A DNA stretch of 64,000 bases, from positions 186,001 to 250,000 of the forward strand of contig CAMDAC010000001.1 in assembly GCA_945888325.1 (NCBI GenBank), read 5' to 3'. Both the position numbers and the translations under genes were made by a program. The notes below the pieces were generated by a model, which saw nothing but the letters and a program-made list of their open reading frames with translations, ran no database searches and had not been told where the DNA came from. The stretch is from Candidatus Sulfopaludibacter sp. SbA3 (GTDB lineage: Bacteria; Pseudomonadota; Alphaproteobacteria; Caulobacterales; Hyphomonadaceae). This document shows, piece by piece, positions 45,969-56,801 of the stretch; position 1 is the first letter of the stretch, and each line of letters opens with the position of its first letter.

Positions 45969-46907
45969 TTAGAGTTTGCGCTTCGCCGTCAGGCGTTTGC
46001 AGACTTCGTCGAGCTGTTCGAGGTCGCGGTACTTGATCCGGATCTCGCCCCCTTCCCGGCCATGACGGATATCGACGACGAGACCGAGTTCGCGGCTGAT
46101 GTCCGCTTCGAGGGCCTCGGTGTCGACGTCCTTTTCCATCGCGGGCTTCGGCGGCATCGACTTGGTCTCGAGAGTCGCTTCACGCGACTCTCGGGCCTTG
46201 GCCTCGACTTCGCGAACGCTGAGGCCCTTTTCGATGGCAAGATCAATGAGCGCCTCGGGGTTGGCGCAGCCGAGCGCCGCGCGGGCATGGCCGGCGCTGA
46301 TGCGGCCTTCGCGGATATGGCGGCGAGCGCCTTCCGGAAGCTGGAGTAGGCGGAGCGTGTTGGTGATATGGGCGCGGCTCTTGCCGACGCTGGTGGCGAG
46401 GCTGTCCTGGGTGCGGCCGAAGCGTTTGATCAGCGCGTCATAGGCTTCTGCCTCGTCGACCGGATTGAGGTCGGCGCGCTGGACGTTCTCGATGATGCCG
46501 ATCTCGAGAAGGGCGAGTTCGTCGACGTCTTTGACGACGGCCGGAATGTGCGTCAGCCCCGCCATGCGCGCGGCGCGCCAGCGGCGCTCACCGGCGATGA
46601 TCTGGAACTTGCCCGCTTCTTTAGGATCGGGGCGTACGAGGATCGCCTGGAGCACGCCCTTGGTCTTCAGGGATTCCGAAAGCTCGCGCAATTCCCCATC
46701 ATCGAAACTGCGTCGCGGCTGGGCCGGGTTGCGGCGGATCAGGTCGAGTGCGATCTCGTTCGGTCGTTCCGTAGGCGGAAAATCCGGGGCCGGAACACTT
46801 GCCGCAGGCGAGCGAACGCCCATTGCCTCGACTTCGCCGATCAGGGCCGAAAGGCCGCGTCCGAGACGCGAAGCGCGGCGGCCGTCATCCTGGAGTTCGC
46901 CGCTCAT
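45969..46907 (-). CDS. parB: chromosome-partitioning protein ParB
   Basis: CTP-dependent clamp that loads at parS and spreads. The 312-residue product has the N-terminal nuclease-like domain with GERRWRAARMAGL (the CTP/arginine box), the central HTH (TQDSLATSVGKSRAHITNTLRLLQLP) and the C-terminal dimerisation domain ending CKRLTAKRKL. A conserved ParA-stimulating N-terminus (RRASRLGRGLSALIGE) is also present. parA overlaps by 4 bp. Two perfect parS sites are within 3 kb, in rsmG and mnmG. Confidence 0.97.
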   Translation of the reverse strand: MSGELQDDGRRASRLGRGLSALIGEVEAMGVRSPAASVPAPDFPPTERPNEIALDLIRRNPAQPRRSFDDGELRELSESLKTKGVLQAILVRPDPKEAGKFQIIAGERRWRAARMAGLTHIPAVVKDVDELALLEIGIIENVQRADLNPVDEAEAYDALIKRFGRTQDSLATSVGKSRAHITNTLRLLQLPEGARRHIREGRISAGHARAALGCANPEALIDLAIEKGLSVREVEAKARESREATLETKSMPPKPAMEKDVDTEALEADISRELGLVVDIRHGREGGEIRIKYRDLEQLDEVCKRLTAKRKL

Positions 46908-47710
46908 GCCACCCTCGCCTTCTCGCGCTGCAGGACCTCCGAAGCGAGACGGATGTACGCCTCGCTGCCCGGGCAGCGATAATCATAAAGGAGCGCCGGC
47001 TTGCCGAAGGACGGCGCCTCGGACAGGCGCACGTTGCGCGGGATGACCGTGTTGTAGACCTTCGAGCCGAAGAAGGAGCGCACTTCATTGGCCACCTGGT
47101 CGGACAGCGAATTGCGCCGGTCATACATGGTCAGCACCACGCCCTGGATTTCAAGTGTCGGGTTGAGACCCGAGCGGACCACCTCGACTGTGCGCAAGAG
47201 CTGCGACAGGCCTTCAAGCGCCAGGAACTCGCACTGCAGCGGAACGAGCAACGCATCGGCAGCCGTCATGGCGTTCATGGTCAGGGCCGACAGCGAGGGC
47301 GGGCAGTCGATCAGGACGTAATCATACTTCACGAGGTCACCGGTCTCGGCGCGCGCGATATAGGTCTGCAGCGCTTCCTTGAGCCGGTAGGACCGGTGGG
47401 CATCGCCCGCGAGTTCGGTCTCGACGCCGGACAGGTTCTCGTCGCCGGGAATGATGTCGAGGCGCGGCACGATGGTGGAGAGCACGGCTTCCTCGAGCGG
47501 AATCCGGTCGACCACAAGATCATAGGAGGTCTGAAGGCGCTCCGCCCGGGAGATGCCGAGGCCGGTCGAGGCGTTACCCTGCGCATCGAAGTCGACGATC
47601 AGCACCCGGCGCCCGACGGCCGCCAATGCGGTGCCAAGGTTGATGGACGTCGTCGTTTTACCGACTCCGCCTTTCTGGTTCACAACTGCAAATATCCTAG
47701 GCTTAGCCAT
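46904..47710 (-). CDS. parA: chromosome-partitioning ATPase ParA
   Basis: Walker-type ATPase that moves ParB-parS complexes, 268 residues. The deviant Walker A motif is KGGVGKTTT at 13-21; other parts are VDFDAQGNASTGLG and LIDCPPSLSALT, the Walker A' and B segments. The start overlaps the rsmG stop by 8 bp and the stop overlaps the parB start by 4 bp, so the three genes form a tight unit. Confidence 0.98.
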   Translation of the reverse strand: MAKPRIFAVVNQKGGVGKTTTSINLGTALAAVGRRVLIVDFDAQGNASTGLGISRAERLQTSYDLVVDRIPLEEAVLSTIVPRLDIIPGDENLSGVETELAGDAHRSYRLKEALQTYIARAETGDLVKYDYVLIDCPPSLSALTMNAMTAADALLVPLQCEFLALEGLSQLLRTVEVVRSGLNPTLEIQGVVLTMYDRRNSLSDQVANEVRSFFGSKVYNTVIPRNVRLSEAPSFGKPALLYDYRCPGSEAYIRLASEVLQREKARVA

Positions 47711-48326
47711 GACGACGTGCCGCTTCCCTGACGATTAAAATTACCCCGGCACCACCGCTGCGACTTGGAATCGCTTGATAAGCGAAATTCCACCTTTGCT
47801 GGGCTGCCGTCAATTCTTCTTTCCAGCGTTCGCCCTTTGGGAAGACTCCTGTTGCCCCTTTGCACAGCCAGGGCGCAGCATAATCGAGCAGCTCCGGGAG
47901 CGGGGCAAAAGCGCGTGCAGTGACGTAAGCAGCGGCGATCGGGGGCGCGGCCTCGACCCGGCCCTGGTGGACTTCGGCGGGCAAATCGGCGGCTTCGATG
48001 GCGGCGCGCAGAAACGCACATTTCTTTCCGACACTCTCGATCATCGTCACATGACCCGCCGGACGCGCCGCCGCGAGAATCAATCCGGGAAAGCCGGCGC
48101 CCGATCCGAGGTCGACCACGCGGGCTGTATCCGGGATCCGGTCGAGCAGCTGGACGGAGTCGCCGACATGCCGCGTCCAGATCTGCGGCCACTCTTTCGG
48201 ACCGATCAGATTGCTCCGCGTTCGCCAATGGTCGAGCGTCTCGATGATGATGTCGAGCTTGGCCAATGTTTCACGTGAAACATCGTGGGCGGCCAGAAAG
48301 GCCGCGCGGTCGTTATTGTCTGTCAT
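47703..48326 (-). CDS. rsmG: 16S rRNA m7G527 methyltransferase RsmG (GidB)
   Basis: Methylates G527 of 16S rRNA; 207 residues. The SAM-binding motif is VVDLGSGAGFPGLILAAARP, and RAFAPLPELLDYA lies further on. The codons for HDVSRETLA, residues 14-22, contain a perfect parS site, so this stretch serves both as coding sequence and as a ParB site. It overlaps parA by 8 bp at its 3' end and lies 17 bp after mnmG. Confidence 0.96.
   Translation of the reverse strand: MTDNNDRAAFLAAHDVSRETLAKLDIIIETLDHWRTRSNLIGPKEWPQIWTRHVGDSVQLLDRIPDTARVVDLGSGAGFPGLILAAARPAGHVTMIESVGKKCAFLRAAIEAADLPAEVHQGRVEAAPPIAAAYVTARAFAPLPELLDYAAPWLCKGATGVFPKGERWKEELTAAQQRWNFAYQAIPSRSGGAGVILIVREAARRHG
48267..48282. promoter_or_regulatory. 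parS: parS site inside rsmG
   Basis: TGTTTCACGTGAAACA, a perfect 16-bp palindrome identical to the canonical ParB-binding parS consensus. It lies in codons of rsmG, 0.6 kb from the parA start and about 7.4 kb from the predicted origin. Confidence 0.95.
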
Positions 48327-48343: not shown

Positions 48344-50209
48344 CTACCCTGTTCGCCGGACGCGTTTCACGTGACCGAGCAGAGCGGTCAAGGCCCCGGG
48401 TGTCACACCCTCGATCCGCGCCGCCTGGCCGAGGGTCATCGGACGAACGGCCTTGAGCTTGGACCGGACCTCGTTCGACAGCCCGCCGATGGTATCATAG
48501 TCGAGGCTCTCAGGAAGCGTCAGGGACTCGTCCCGCCGGAGCGCGGCGACGTCATCCGACTGCCGGTCAAGGTAAGCGCCGTACAGCGCTTCAATCTCGA
48601 TCTGCGCGCCGATGGCATCCGGGATCGATTCCAACTCCGGCCAAACTGCGCGGAGGTGTGCGAGCGTGATCTCTTTATATGAGAGATACTCCCAGGCCGA
48701 GCGGACCCGGCCATCCTGATTTATGGTCCAACCGGCTTTCACCGCGGCGGCCGGAGACAGGGTAAGAGATTTGAGTTTAGTGCGGGCCTCATCCAGCGCG
48801 CGATGTTTCACGTGAAACATTGCGGCGCGTTCCGGACCCACGCAACCGGCCTCAAGTCCGCGCGGCGTCAGACGCTGGTCGGCATTGTCGGCGCGAAGCG
48901 CAAGACGGTATTCGGCGCGCGACGTGAACATGCGATAAGGCTCGGTGACACCCCGGGTCACAAGGTCATCGATCAGGACTCCGATATAGGCCTCGGCCCG
49001 GTCGAAGATGACGGGGTCTTTTCCGGCCGCGGCGCGGGCGGCATTGAGCCCCGCCATCAGACCTTGAGCGCCTGCTTCCTCATATCCGGTCGTGCCGTTG
49101 ATCTGACCGGCGAGATAGAGGCCGGTGAGCGCCTTGACTTCCAGAGCCGGCGAAAGCGCGCGCGGGTCCACATAGTCATATTCAATGGCATAGGCATGCT
49201 GGAGGATGACGACATCCTCCAGGCCGGGGATCGTCCGGATGAACTGGTCCTGGATCTCCTCCGGCAGTGAGGTCGAGATGCCGTTCGGATAGACCGTGTG
49301 ATCATCCAGGCCCTCCGGCTCGAGGAAGATCTGGTGGCGATCCCGGTCGGCGAAGCGGTGGACCTTGTCTTCGATCGAGGGGCAATAGCGGGGACCGCGT
49401 CCGGCAATCGCCCCGGAATAGACCGCCGACTGGTTGAGGTTCGCGTCGATGATCGCGTGGGTCTCGGGCGTGGTCCAGGTAATGCCGCAGGCGACCTGGG
49501 GCACATGAATCCGGGGGGTCAGGAAACTGAACGGGATCGGCTGGTCATCGGCGGGCTGCATCTCGAGCCGGTCCCAATGGATCGTCCGGCCATCGAGCCG
49601 AGCGGGGGTGCCGGTCTTGAGCCGGCCCATCGGCAAGCCGAGCGCGTAGAGCCGGTCCGACAATCCGATGGCGGGCGCTTCGCCAACCCGGCCCGCGGGG
49701 ATACGTTTGGCGCCGATGTGGATGACGCCCTTCAGAAAGGTGCCGGTCGTGATCACGACCTTGGCCACCCGGTAGAGGGTTCCCGTCAGGCCGATGATGC
49801 CAGCGACCTGTCCGTCTTCGACGACCAGATCTTCGGCGCCGTCCTCGATGATCGTCAGGTTCGGGTACGCGCCGAGTTCGGCCTGCATCGCTTCGCGGTA
49901 GAGCTTCCGGTCGATCTGCGCACGGGGTCCCCAGACGGCCGGACCCTTAGACCGGTTGAGCATCCGGAACTGGATACCGGCCTTGTCGGCCATCCGGCCC
50001 ATGACGCCGTCGAGGGCATCGATCTCCCGGACGAGGTGACCTTTGCCAAGACCGCCGATGGCGGGGTTACAACTCATCTCGCCGATGGTCGACCGCTTGT
50101 GGGTGACGAGCGCGGTGCGCGCGCCGAAGCGGGCAGAGGCCGCCGCAGCTTCGCAGCCGGCATGGCCGCCGCCAATCACGATTACATCAAAGTCGGCCGC
50201 GTGCGGCAT
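48344..50209 (-). CDS. mnmG: tRNA cmnm5U34 synthesis protein MnmG (GidA)
   Basis: FAD enzyme that modifies wobble U34 together with MnmE; 621 residues. Motifs are [53 protein letters not shown] and the C-terminal LRPQTIGQAARI-like [26 protein letters not shown] perfect parS site (48804-48819) encodes an internal MFHVKH, and a degenerate one lies near the 3' end. A perfect CtrA box overlaps the start codon at 50209. Gene order mnmE-mnmG-rsmG-parA-parB is the usual origin-proximal order. Confidence 0.97.
48364..48374. promoter_or_regulatory. degenerate parS-like site in the mnmG 3' end
   Basis: GTTTCACGTGA with one clean arm: over the 14-bp core GTTTCACGTGAAAC it differs at three places in the second arm. 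It may bind ParB weakly or be chance, given the two perfect sites close by. Confidence 0.35.
48804..48819. promoter_or_regulatory. parS: parS site inside mnmG
   Basis: TGTTTCACGTGAAACA, identical to the site at 48267 and 537 bp away. In the mnmG frame it is read as the peptide MFHVKH, a well-known sign of a parS embedded in coding DNA. Confidence 0.95.
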
Positions 50210-50223
50210 TAACCATCTCTTAA
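50209..50223. promoter_or_regulatory. exact CtrA box overlapping the mnmG start
   Basis: TTAACCATCTCTTAA is an exact TTAA-N7-TTAA, and its first half TTAACCAT is itself a known CtrA half-site. It overlaps the mnmG ATG (50207-50209) by one base and lies in the 66-bp gap to mnmE. CtrA binding is inferred from the motif and the taxon, not shown. Confidence 0.65.
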
Positions 50224-54576: not shown

Positions 54577-55614
54577 TTATCCTTTTCGAATCCGGGCCAG
54601 AACGCGCTCGACGTTCGCAATCGGGGTTTCAGGACGAACCCCGTGGCCAAGATTGAAGATATGGGGCCGGCCGCGATAGGCGTCCAGAAGTTGGTCCACC
54701 CGTGCGTCAAGACGCGCACCTCCCTCGATCAGCAGCAGGGGATCGAGATGGCCCTGAACCGGGAAATTCGGGGGCAGCGTGCTGTTGATGAATTTCGGCA
54801 GGGCGGCGGTATCGAGGCCCACGCCTGTCACGCCCGTCGCGGCCACATAGTCCGGCACCATGACGCCGGCCCCGCGGGGAAAGCCGATGATCGGCACGGT
54901 CACGCCCATGCCGCGCAGGCGCGACACCAGTTTCTTGGTCGGCGCGATGATCACTTCCTCGAAGATATTGTCCGGCAGGCCTTCGGCCCAGCTGTCGAAC
55001 AGCATCAGCGCATCGGCGCCGGCTTCGACCTGGCGGGCGAGGTAATGGGCGGTTGCCTCGCCGACGAGATCCATCGCCGCCGCCAGATCATCCGGGCGTC
55101 CATGCGCCCAGCGCCAAGCCATCGACTTGTCGGTCTTGCCCCGGCCTTCGACAGCATACAGCGTCACGGTCCAGGGCGAACCGGCAAACCCGATCAGCGC
55201 GCATGACGGCGGCAGTTCGGCCTTCACCCGCGAGACCGTTTCATAGACGGGCGACAGCTTGTCAGCAGCCGCCTGCGGTTTGACCCGCTGCAGGTCTGAC
55301 GGCGTGTTGATGACTTCGACTAGCGGGCCTTCGCCCTTTTCGAACGTGACGCCGAGACCCATCGCATCAAGGATCAGCAGAATGTCGGCAAACAGGATGG
55401 CCGCGTCCATGCCGTACCGGCGAACCGGCTGCAGCGTGGCTTCGGCGGCCAGAGACGGCGTGTAGCAGAAGTCGAGAAAGTCGCGCGCCCGCGAACGGGT
55501 TTCGAGATATTCCGGAAGGTGCCGGCCAGCCTGCCGCATCATCCAGACCGGGGGAGGGGAGACCGCCTGACCTGAAAGCACATCCAGAAATTTTTTCCCG
55601 CTGGTGGCCGTCAT
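54577..55614 (-). CDS. hemE: uroporphyrinogen decarboxylase HemE
   Basis: Fifth step of heme synthesis; 345 residues from the ATG at 55614. The active-site region PPVWMMRQAGRHLPEY lies at the normal distance from this start, and FAGSPWTVTLYAVEG and LFDSWAEGLP fit the family. An ATG 27 bp upstream (55641) is an alternative. The gene flanks the predicted origin on the left, as hemE does at Caulobacter Cori, so its promoter may lie in the origin. Confidence 0.97.
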   Translation of the reverse strand: MTATSGKKFLDVLSGQAVSPPPVWMMRQAGRHLPEYLETRSRARDFLDFCYTPSLAAEATLQPVRRYGMDAAILFADILLILDAMGLGVTFEKGEGPLVEVINTPSDLQRVKPQAAADKLSPVYETVSRVKAELPPSCALIGFAGSPWTVTLYAVEGRGKTDKSMAWRWAHGRPDDLAAAMDLVGEATAHYLARQVEAGADALMLFDSWAEGLPDNIFEEVIIAPTKKLVSRLRGMGVTVPIIGFPRGAGVMVPDYVAATGVTGVGLDTAALPKFINSTLPPNFPVQGHLDPLLLIEGGARLDARVDQLLDAYRGRPHIFNLGHGVRPETPIANVERVLARIRKG

Positions 55615-55958
55615 CACCTTCCCCTTTTCATCCCATTTCAAACGAGCCCGTCAGGGCGCTTATAGTTATGAAGCTGCAGATAGGTTGGAGAGCCTCGTTT
55701 CAACGGCTTTGTCCACCAAAATCCACAAGCGAGTCACAAGCGCCGCTCGCCTGACAGGCGAGCGGATTCCCGAAGACTCTCAATGGTTAACGCAAGGTTA
55801 AAGACCCTAGGGGAATCACAGGACGGAACAGGCCGTGACCGCGCGGGAGTCGAATTCTCCCAGCTGTGGAATGCGTGTGAGTCCCTGTGGGCTGCGGCGC
55901 ATTCCACAGGCGAGTCACAACCCTTGTGCAAAGAAGGAAGCCCCGGCAAGACAGGCGC
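55615..55958. other. oriC: predicted chromosomal replication origin (oriC) between hemE and ppsR
   Basis: A 344-bp gap between divergent hemE and ppsR, the same place as Cori in Caulobacter. It contains an exact CtrA box at 55787-55801, seven GANTC sites between 55731 and 55916, and CCACA/TGTGG cores of DnaA-like boxes at 55723, 55865, 55886 and 55903. A 10-bp stem CCGCTCGCCT/AGGCGAGCGG lies at 55743-55765, a 12-bp inverted repeat CTGTGGAATGCG/CGCATTCCACAG at 55864-55875 and 55898-55909, and a direct repeat GCGAGTCACAA at 55729 and 55910. An AT-richer patch near 55660 could be the unwinding element. Origin activity is inferred from these features and synteny. Confidence 0.8.
55787..55801. promoter_or_regulatory. 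exact CtrA box in the predicted origin
   Basis: TTAACGCAAGGTTAA, a perfect TTAA-N7-TTAA. In Caulobacter, CtrA binds such boxes at the origin to block replication in swarmer cells. Only one exact box is present here, against several in Caulobacter. Confidence 0.75.
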
Positions 55959-56801
55959 ATGACACGCCCCACCCGGCCCGCTATCTACTTCAATGTGCAC
56001 CTCGTCTCGGACTCCACGGGCGAGACGCTGAACGCCGTACAGCGCGCCGCCTGTGCGCAGTTCGAGAACGTCCAGCCGCTGGAGCACAACTATTACCTTG
56101 TCCGCTCTGAACGCCAGCTCGAACGCGTCACCCGCGAGATCGAGGCAGCGCCCGGTGTCGTCTGGTACACCATCTCAGATTCCGGCCTGCGCGCCCGCCT
56201 CGAGTCCTTCTGCCGTGAGCGGAGCATTCCAACCCTGCCGGTGCTCGATCCCTCGATCGCGATGCTGAGCCGCCATCTCGGCGTCGCCGCAAACAACCGT
56301 GTCGCCGGCCAGCATGCGATGGATGAAGACTATTTCGAGCGGATGGAAGCGATCAACTTCACGCTCGCGCACGATGACGGCCAGAACATGGAAAGCCTGA
56401 TTGGCGCCGATGTCATCCTGCTGGGCGTCAGCCGCACGTCGAAGACGCCGACCTGCGTCTATCTCGCCAACCGCAAGGTCCGTGCCGGCAACATCCCGCT
56501 GGTGCCCGGCGCCCCGTTGCCGGACTTCCTCGAGAATATGGGCGACAAGGGTCCGCTGGTCGTCGGCCTGAAGGTTTCCGCTGAGCGCCTCGTTCAGATC
56601 CGCCGCCAGCGCCTGATCTCGCTCAACCAGGATGACGCCGGCGACTATGCGGACGAAGAGGCGGTGCGCGAGGAAATCACGCAGGCCAACCGTCTGTTCC
56701 AACGCAACCAGTGGAAGACCATCGACGTCTCACGCCGTTCGGTCGAAGAAACCGCCGCGGCGATCCTCAACCTTCTGCACGAACGCCGGGGCCATCCGTG
56801 A
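55959..56801 (+). CDS. ppsR: PEP synthase / PPDK regulatory protein (DUF299)
   Basis: Bifunctional kinase/pyrophosphorylase that controls phosphoenolpyruvate synthase or pyruvate, phosphate dikinase. The 280-residue product starts MTRPTRPAIYFNVHLVSDST, and the P-loop-like segment GVSRTSKTPTCVYLANR is the signature of this family. This is the homologue of the gene that flanks the Caulobacter and Rickettsia origins (RP001). Its stop overlaps the maf start in GTGA, so it heads the ppsR-maf-aroE-coaE-dnaQ run. Confidence 0.94.
   Translation: MTRPTRPAIYFNVHLVSDSTGETLNAVQRAACAQFENVQPLEHNYYLVRSERQLERVTREIEAAPGVVWYTISDSGLRARLESFCRERSIPTLPVLDPSIAMLSRHLGVAANNRVAGQHAMDEDYFERMEAINFTLAHDDGQNMESLIGADVILLGVSRTSKTPTCVYLANRKVRAGNIPLVPGAPLPDFLENMGDKGPLVVGLKVSAERLVQIRRQRLISLNQDDAGDYADEEAVREEITQANRLFQRNQWKTIDVSRRSVEETAAAILNLLHERRGHP

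Follow-up and report, generated by a model that had tools for sequence, protein, structure and literature searches.

The chromosomal origin of Caulobacter crescentus, Cori, is bordered by hemE and by RP001, and its W-box has the sequence TCCCCACA. It carries the CtrA box TTAA-N7-TTAA, GANTC sites and only moderate and weak DnaA boxes, the weak sites having G at position 2 (TGATCCACA). In Hyphomonas neptunium, marker frequency peaks close to hemE, with parAB and two parS sites approximately 7 kb away (PMC6650430, 2019), and CtrA ChIP-seq placed a site adjoining ori (PMC7200025, 2020). Both papers place the origin; the passages considered here describe no internal box structure, and according to them neither DnaA boxes nor GC skew led to a clear outcome (PMC6650430; PMC7200025).

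The window analysed here is a stretch of 64 kb (G000:C1:186001-250000) from a 65-contig assembly of 3.28 Mb. Its genus (g1), taken to be Hyphomonas, is represented by 42 genomes in the family set. The gap between hemE and ppsR in this window shares its hemE flank and its parAB and parS neighbours with the H. neptunium origin, next to which CtrA is bound. Within it, conserved CACA cores of DnaA type overlap the CcrM site GANTC.

The hemE-ppsR gap and its neighbourhood

The features that define the locus are as follows.

45969..46907, minus strand: parB, TIGR00180 at 187 bits (cut-off 58)
46904..47710, minus strand: parA, ParA-superfamily matches, none of the 25 matches listed lying above its own curated cut-off
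48267..48282, plus strand: parS site 1, perfect, identical to the oligonucleotide tested in H. neptunium (PMC6650430)
48804..48819, plus strand: parS site 2, perfect, identical to the same oligonucleotide (PMC6650430)
54577..55614, minus strand: hemE (uroporphyrinogen decarboxylase), TIGR01464 at 354 bits (cut-off 303), ATG at 55614; left border of the gap
55615..55958, no strand: the gap between divergent hemE and ppsR, predicted oriC
55959..56801, plus strand: ppsR (DUF299/RP001 homologue), PRK05339 at 316 bits (cut-off 225), ATG at 55959; right border of the gap

The two start codons set the limits of the gap exactly where the original prediction had them. Within the window, rho, mnmE/mnmG, rsmG, parA and parB lie to the left, with maf, aroE, dnaQ and secB to the right; mnmE and mnmG were identified by reading translations, and all other neighbours, borders included, by family matches. 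The position and neighbours of parA are the same as those of H. neptunium parA. ParA/ParB and parS had been noted about 7 kb away, and the two perfect parS sites are found 6.8 and 7.3 kb from the gap, with a chance expectation of 0.09 matches when up to 3 mismatches are allowed.

The proposed synteny with the Caulobacter origin is supported by the hemE and ppsR borders and by the recurrence of the same divergent arrangement in 44 loci from outside the genus, in bacteria ranging from Henriciella to Sphingopyxis. Together with 33 loci of the genus (31 distinct) this gives 77 loci, a count that includes the window's own locus once and leaves out its second copy. Other hemE loci examined, such as those of Devosia, had no ppsR match beside hemE. 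One genus locus (L029, genome G067) has a gap of approximately 750 bp as opposed to the usual ~340 bp, with two copies of the composite motif described below 596 bp apart, reflecting either an insertion or an assembly fault. In two complete Hyphomonas chromosomes, dnaA is located approximately half a megabase from the gap (G046:C1:213432 and G074:C1:738978, with gaps at 696 and 1242 kb respectively), and is therefore no marker of the origin. The first base of another complete record of the genus (G042, 3,705,021 bp) lies inside the gap, which carries the fused cores in this genome as well.

Sequence elements of the gap

The elements other than candidate DnaA sites are listed below.

55646..55671, no strand: block on the hemE side, the best conserved there, with GC-rich GCCCGTCAGGGCGC leading into an A+T stretch; conservation across 42 genomes is 88-98% in columns 55646-55663
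55765..55769, no strand: GANTC outside boxes, poorly conserved (8/42)
55775..55779, no strand: GANTC outside boxes, poorly conserved (7/42)
55787..55801, plus strand: CtrA box TTAA-N7-TTAA, exact match
55847..55851, no strand: GANTC outside boxes, fairly conserved (35/42)

A CtrA box, many GANTC sites and repeat structures had all been noted in the gap, and each was confirmed. The exact TTAA-N7-TTAA sequence occurs twice in the 64 kb, with 0.06 occurrences expected, and only one of these copies is in the gap. When aligned across the genus, the box is exact in 23 of the 42 genomes, and conforms to TTAA-N7-T(T/A)AA in 41. The second exact copy (50209-50223) overlaps the start of mnmG on the minus strand, between mnmG and mnmE, and is possibly a CtrA-controlled promoter. 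Seven GANTC sites are present in the gap, a number reached by none of 2000 dinucleotide shuffles (mean 1.43, maximum 6). The repeats consist of TCCACA(A/G)GCGAGTCACAA, present twice 181 bp apart, and two inverted repeats, CTGTGGAATGCG/CGCATTCCACAG and CCGCTCGCCTG/CAGGCGAGCGG. The latter forms a perfect inverted repeat, CCGCTCGCCTG-A-CAGGCGAGCGG (55743-55765), between box A2 and the CtrA box; inspection of the genus alignment by eye found it not generally kept, with similar sequences only in the nearest relatives.

In contrast to Cori, the gap has a single CtrA box and no exact G-box or W-box. Also unlike Cori, it has no exact match to the IHF consensus WATCAN5WTR, and the canonical DnaA box TTATNCACA is absent from the window's gap and from 40 of the 42 genus gaps, the remaining 2 having one copy each. 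The conserved block at 55646-55671 is tentatively assigned as a candidate unwinding element or as the hemE promoter region. On the hemE side, DnaA-trio-like triplets (TAA/TAG, minus strand) number at least 3 in 24 of the 38 genus genomes scored (of 42), compared with 26 of 1900 shuffles; the run is weak in the window's own gap, with 2 triplets.

The original prediction of a replication origin is supported by synteny, the CtrA box, GANTC density, the conserved DnaA-type cores, retention of the gap in 42 genomes and the mapping in H. neptunium. We consider it almost certain that the hemE-ppsR gap is the chromosomal origin, oriC. Since the hemE-side mapping and CtrA binding are already published for H. 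neptunium, the origin call itself is not new: the origin is confirmed in kind, was already known for the genus, and its start in vivo is on record for H. neptunium. Likewise, where this locus had been put forward as a point of comparison for stalked budding bacteria, the origin stands, while such a comparison point was already in print with the marker frequency (2019) and ChIP-seq (2020) data.

GC skew around the origin

A GC-skew switch had been expected at the gap. This is the case in the related genus g3, where strand-corrected skew in G012 changes sign at the gap, with 9 of 10 bins negative on its left and all 10 bins positive on its right. In the window's own contig and in G046, the local minimum lies approximately 80 kb to the hemE side, and in G063 the sign likewise changes approximately 80 kb to that side. 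The cumulative minimum of G046 is at 618.3 kb with the gap at 696.1 kb (78 kb off), and the strand-corrected minimum of the own contig, the single 331-kb contig over which the skew of this 65-contig assembly was traced, is at 162.8 kb with the gap at 241.8 kb (79 kb off). These minima could be taken to mean that the origin is not in the gap at all, but some 80 kb to the hemE side. We regard this as very improbable. Opposite mean skew is found on either side of the gap in two complete g1 chromosomes sampled by 20 stretches each (the stretch over the gap left out of the counts): −0.029 (9 stretches, 6 negative) and +0.048 (10 stretches, 9 positive) in G046, and −0.028 (10 stretches, 8 negative) and +0.041 (9 stretches, all positive) in G074. 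The region is furthermore rearranged. The outer flanks are swapped and inverted between the own contig and G046, with breakpoints at the displaced minimum, and among the stretches compared, agreement in position with the own contig is confined to −33 to +6.5 kb around the gap in G063, and to −9 to +6.5 kb in G012. The sign change at the gap in G012 and the published marker-frequency peak close to hemE in H. neptunium (PMC6650430) likewise argue for an origin within the gap.

A similar division is seen in G042, where positive skew prevails on one side (7 of 9 stretches) and negative skew on the other (7 of 10). Third-position skew in strand-corrected 20-kb bins has the wrong sign in four left bins and the first two right bins for G046, in 3 of 4 left bins and the first right bin for the own contig, and in 4 of 4 left bins (two near zero) and no right bin for G063. 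Over tens of kb to either side of the origin, the strand-corrected GC3 skew of the own contig (G000:C1:160000-300000) leans towards the wrong sign. Ribosomal operons were considered as a cause of the breakpoints and rejected: searching seven stretches, which included both breakpoints of the own contig and of G046, with Rfam at gathering scores gave no rRNA and one tRNA (own contig, ~313.7 kb). The displaced minimum coincides with rearrangement breakpoints, but the reversed local sign in Hyphomonas is not fully explained. GC skew was discarded as a means of pinpointing the origin, both on the own contig and in relatives: the two sides differ clearly, with the local position unsharp. Overall, we take the skew to agree with an origin in this neighbourhood, precisely in g3 and in blurred form in Hyphomonas.

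Conserved CACA cores are fused to GANTC

Eight conserved CACA cores of DnaA type were found in the gap, with each core retained in 40 to 42 of the genus genomes (n = 42). No two of the 42 gap sequences are identical, and that of G072, although truncated to 225 bp, is included in every denominator.

55719..55727, plus strand: box A1, AAATCCACA, plain partner in pair A; CACA 40/42
55730..55738, plus strand: box A2, CGAGTCACA, fused to GANTC, its core lying 11 bp beyond that of A1; CACA 40/42, GANTC 38/42
55812..55820, plus strand: box S2, GGAATCACA, GANTC-fused, single, just past the CtrA box; CACA 42/42, GANTC 41/42
55865..55873, minus strand: box B1, reading CATTCCACA on the minus strand and paired with B2; core 42/42
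55876..55884, minus strand: box B2, GGACTCACA on the minus strand, GANTC-fused; core and GANTC 42/42
55900..55908, plus strand: box C1, CATTCCACA, partner of C2; core 42/42, with 0-1 mismatch to TTATCCACA in 19/42 genomes
55911..55919, plus strand: box C2, CGAGTCACA, fused to GANTC, its core lying 11 bp beyond that of C1; core 42/42, GANTC 36/42
55925..55933, minus strand: core D, reading CTTTGCACA on the minus strand, an unpaired and weak site of DnaA type; core 42/42

Six of them are arranged as three pairs, the members of each lying on the same strand and offset by 11 bp (55724/55735, 55865/55876 on the minus strand, and 55905/55916). Each pair, as well as the single core S2, carries one copy of GANTCACA, in which the CACA core overlaps the CcrM site GANTC; core D is unfused. 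B1 is plain in the window and is itself GANTC-fused in 16 of the 42 genomes. A ninth CACA core (55886, minus strand) is kept in 17 of 42. The overlap of GANTC with the conserved CACA cores, which are candidate DnaA sites, is far above chance.

GANTC is kept within cores A2, S2, B2 and C2 in 38, 41, 42 and 36 of the 42 genomes, compared with 8, 7 and 35 for the sites outside cores. At B2, the variable base of GANTC (plus strand) is A in 15 genomes, C in 10, T in 9 and G in 8, while the seven fixed bases TGTGA.TC are invariant in all 42. The same base is G (25), A (12) or C (4) at S2, and only G or C at A2 and C2. A freely varying N within an otherwise fixed GANTC is the pattern expected if selection favours the CcrM recognition sequence rather than one fixed oligomer, and the conservation pattern indicates that GANTC is under selection inside the fused cores. 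The absence of GANTC from C2 in 6 genomes, from A2 in four (one of them a truncated sequence) and from S2 in 1 indicates that individual fusions are not all indispensable.

Such conservation could also be understood if this were an ordinary Caulobacter-type origin in which GANTC is kept for transcription of hemE and ppsR via GcrA, as opposed to control of DnaA. Both proteins needed are present: the genome encodes GcrA, for which we know of no role at ori, and CcrM, recognised by PF01555, a RAMA domain and a match to 6pbd (E 9e-159). GcrA binding depends on adenine methylation in Alphaproteobacteria (PMC3667746), initiation control in C. crescentus does without CcrM (PMC3973325), and the conserved site at 55847 (35/42) is outside any core. 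However, GANTC is best kept precisely where it and a CACA core overlap, at four sites that occupy both strands and are spread over ~190 bp; three of the fused sites belong to fixed 11-bp pairs, which promoters would not need; and a plain TCCACA box stands at the corresponding place in two g3 genomes, G004 and G012 (see below). A role confined to transcription is, in our estimate, unlikely.

The fused motif is a feature of the genus

All 4 copies of GANTCACA in the 64 kb are in the gap. Over the 3.28-Mb genome it occurs 41 times versus 48 for the reversed control, and so shows no genome-wide excess. One cluster of three copies within 40 bp (G000:C23:6782-6819, L181) was considered as a second origin or titration site and rejected, as it sits at the end of a short ORF that was read by eye as an insertion-sequence transposase, resembling the IS5 type; the cluster looks more like the end of an insertion sequence. 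The composite CCACA-N3-GANTCACA is far more selective, with 2 copies in the 3.28-Mb genome, both in the gap, and none for the control.

Each of the 42 genus genomes has 3 to 5 copies of GANTCACA in its gap, as do the 33 genus loci (31 distinct), in comparison with none in 39 and one in 5 of the 44 gaps from other bacteria. Within the family, all 42 g1 genomes contain the composite, as does a single one of the 63 others, G078 of genus g6; the control gave 5 matches across the 105 genomes. By coordinates, the g1 matches lie upstream of ppsR at a distance of 660 bp or less. The exceptions are one extra copy each in G045 (C25) and G047 (C33), which are located away from hemE/ppsR and were set aside. 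With these 2 genus matches elsewhere as the few false ones, the 16-base composite can serve to mark the origin in Hyphomonas draft genomes.

Across the order, 34 of 299 genomes contain the composite, made up of 25 of 25 g1 genomes, G078 and 8 of 238 genomes outside family f1; the latter have one copy each, and control matches occur in 5 of the 238. Two of these 8, both of one genus, have the composite in a hemE-ppsR gap, and the other 6 show no hemE or ppsR match in loci of approximately 3 kb. The two former loci (L315 and L316, genomes G177 and G277, from another family of the order) have one composite each, possibly an independent gain of one fused box.

Smaller numbers of fused cores also occur elsewhere in the family. 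Two fused cores (pairs A and B) are present in g6 and one (pair B) in the Hyphomonadaceae loci L047 and L050, while GANTCACA was absent from the three g3 gaps sampled (G004, G007 and G012). In a DnaA tree g1 forms one clade, g6 is placed weakly with g3 and the position of g9 is uncertain. The fused cores could have been gained stepwise; alternatively, they may have been gained independently, or lost in g3. Judged by sequence, fused boxes of CcrM and DnaA type are a genus-wide variant. As far as our searches show, this anatomy is new: the literature searched, mostly at the level of listings and passages, gave no description of GANTC fused to DnaA boxes.

The fused cores as probable DnaA sites

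We consider the fused cores to be probable DnaA sites on the grounds of core, spacing and the corresponding pair in g3. Between cores on the same strand, 11 bp is the most frequent distance, both in the genus (124 pairs, from 42 gaps that are related and hence not independent) and in the 44 gaps of other bacteria (15 pairs). In E. coli, low-affinity DnaA sites are 2 bp apart (PMC6727663); a 2-bp gap between 9-mers corresponds to 11 bp from start to start, the same shift as in the Hyphomonas pairs.

The ppsR-side pair offers a comparison with g3. In G004 and G012 this pair consists of TATCCACA, followed 11 bp on by CCTCCACA or CATCCACA, whereas the second member in Hyphomonas is GAGTCACA or GACTCACA in 36 of 42 genomes. 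The correspondence was judged by position and flanks as opposed to alignment. As the g3 pair at this place is plain, the fused C2 occupies the spot of an ordinary (TCCACA) box in relatives.

In Caulobacter the G-box reads TGATCCACA, and the box of H. pylori reads TCATTCACA (PMC4285127). When set against the G-box, the fused form xGANTCACA has G2, A3 and CACA in common, places T at position 5 (the N of consensus TTATNCACA) and leaves position 4 free. The G at position 2, present in both, here also starts the GANTC site. With 3-4 mismatches to TTATCCACA almost throughout, the fused cores would be weak at best; Cori, similarly, is without strong boxes.

This poor fit at the first positions could indicate that GANTCACA is the site of another origin protein, possibly one reading methylation, acting beside DnaA at the plain boxes; a motif nearly restricted to the genus could mean a genus-restricted protein. 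We think this improbable, more so than the transcriptional alternative, as the CACA core, the 11-bp pairing and the plain box of g3 all fit DnaA, and the DnaA recognition motif is kept. Indeed, the RDHTT motif of domain IV is present in all 8 genus genomes inspected, reading FGKRDHTT in the window's own genome. An altered DNA-binding domain as the cause of the unusual boxes was rejected in view of this motif, with 3 of the last 115 alignment columns separating g1 (8 genomes) from 13 others. Taken together, the core, the spacing, the g3 pair and the DnaA motif make a role for DnaA at the fused cores likely, as judged from these comparisons.

A proposed role for methylation

We propose a model in which DnaA would anchor on the plain, better-matching box of each pair and then be handed to the weaker GANTC-fused box, following the 2-bp-spaced arrays of E. 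coli oriC. In the swarmer cell, CtrA~P at the box beside S2 would block loading. Following initiation, the new strand would make the fused boxes hemimethylated, a state lasting until late in the cell cycle, when CcrM acts. Loading of DnaA could then differ between old, fully methylated and new, hemimethylated origins, loosely resembling the effect of Dam/SeqA in E. coli, through a direct effect of methylation or via a reader, and this difference might either limit re-initiation or license the next round.

In a mixed C. crescentus population, about 80% of the cells have origin-near GANTC in the hemimethylated state (PMC3973325). If this holds in Hyphomonas, the weak boxes would be hemimethylated for most of the cycle after initiation. 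However, C. crescentus cells lacking CcrM had a DNA-content profile resembling that of the wild type, and initiation was, in the authors' conclusion, not under CcrM control (PMC3973325). Since this result concerns another origin, it lowers the prior and leaves the Hyphomonas case unsettled. In Agrobacterium tumefaciens, a block by hemimethylation has been proposed as a model for the RepC-dependent ori2 (PMC11514494).

We judge the chances that methylation state changes initiation to be evenly balanced. The explanation as a whole, comprising an origin with paired DnaA boxes and CcrM-tuned loading, is somewhat favoured.

Comparison with known origins

One parallel outside the Alphaproteobacteria is E. 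coli oriC, where low-affinity DnaA sites are likewise 2 bp apart (PMC6727663), and where methylation sites overlap the low-affinity DnaA sites R5, I2, I3 and tau (PMC4285127). The two origins differ in using GATC and Dam in E. coli as opposed to GANTC and CcrM here, and any effect on initiation in Hyphomonas is hypothetical. SeqA blocks the E. coli DnaA sites that overlap GATC, and seqA is reported from only a subset of Dam-bearing proteobacteria (PMC4285127). Vibrio cholerae ori2 provides a second parallel, with head-to-tail initiator sites at 10-11 bp spacing that each contain a methylation site (RctB 12-mers with GATC; PMC6090056). There the initiator is RctB and not DnaA, the methylase is Dam and not CcrM, and binding is methylation-dependent (PMC6090056). 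It is conceivable, though we hold it somewhat doubtful, that Hyphomonas independently evolved an alphaproteobacterial counterpart of Dam/SeqA, in which DnaA boxes were turned into CcrM sites; the long hemimethylated period that follows initiation would then alter DnaA loading and hold a budding bacterium to one round of replication per cycle.

For H. neptunium itself, fused cores would help to explain why the search for DnaA boxes failed. A methylation mark fused to likely initiator sites suggests that methylation helps to decide when copying may start. If true, Hyphomonas would have a DnaA origin controlled by CcrM, a combination sought in Caulobacter and not found there. The question of whether CcrM controls the start of replication was asked for Caulobacter and answered in the negative (PMC3973325); Hyphomonas presents a different anatomy, in which the methylation site and the likely initiator site are identical. 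As CACA and GANTC are separable by single-base changes, the question is directly testable in H. neptunium, where gene fusions and deletions have been made (PMC6650430).
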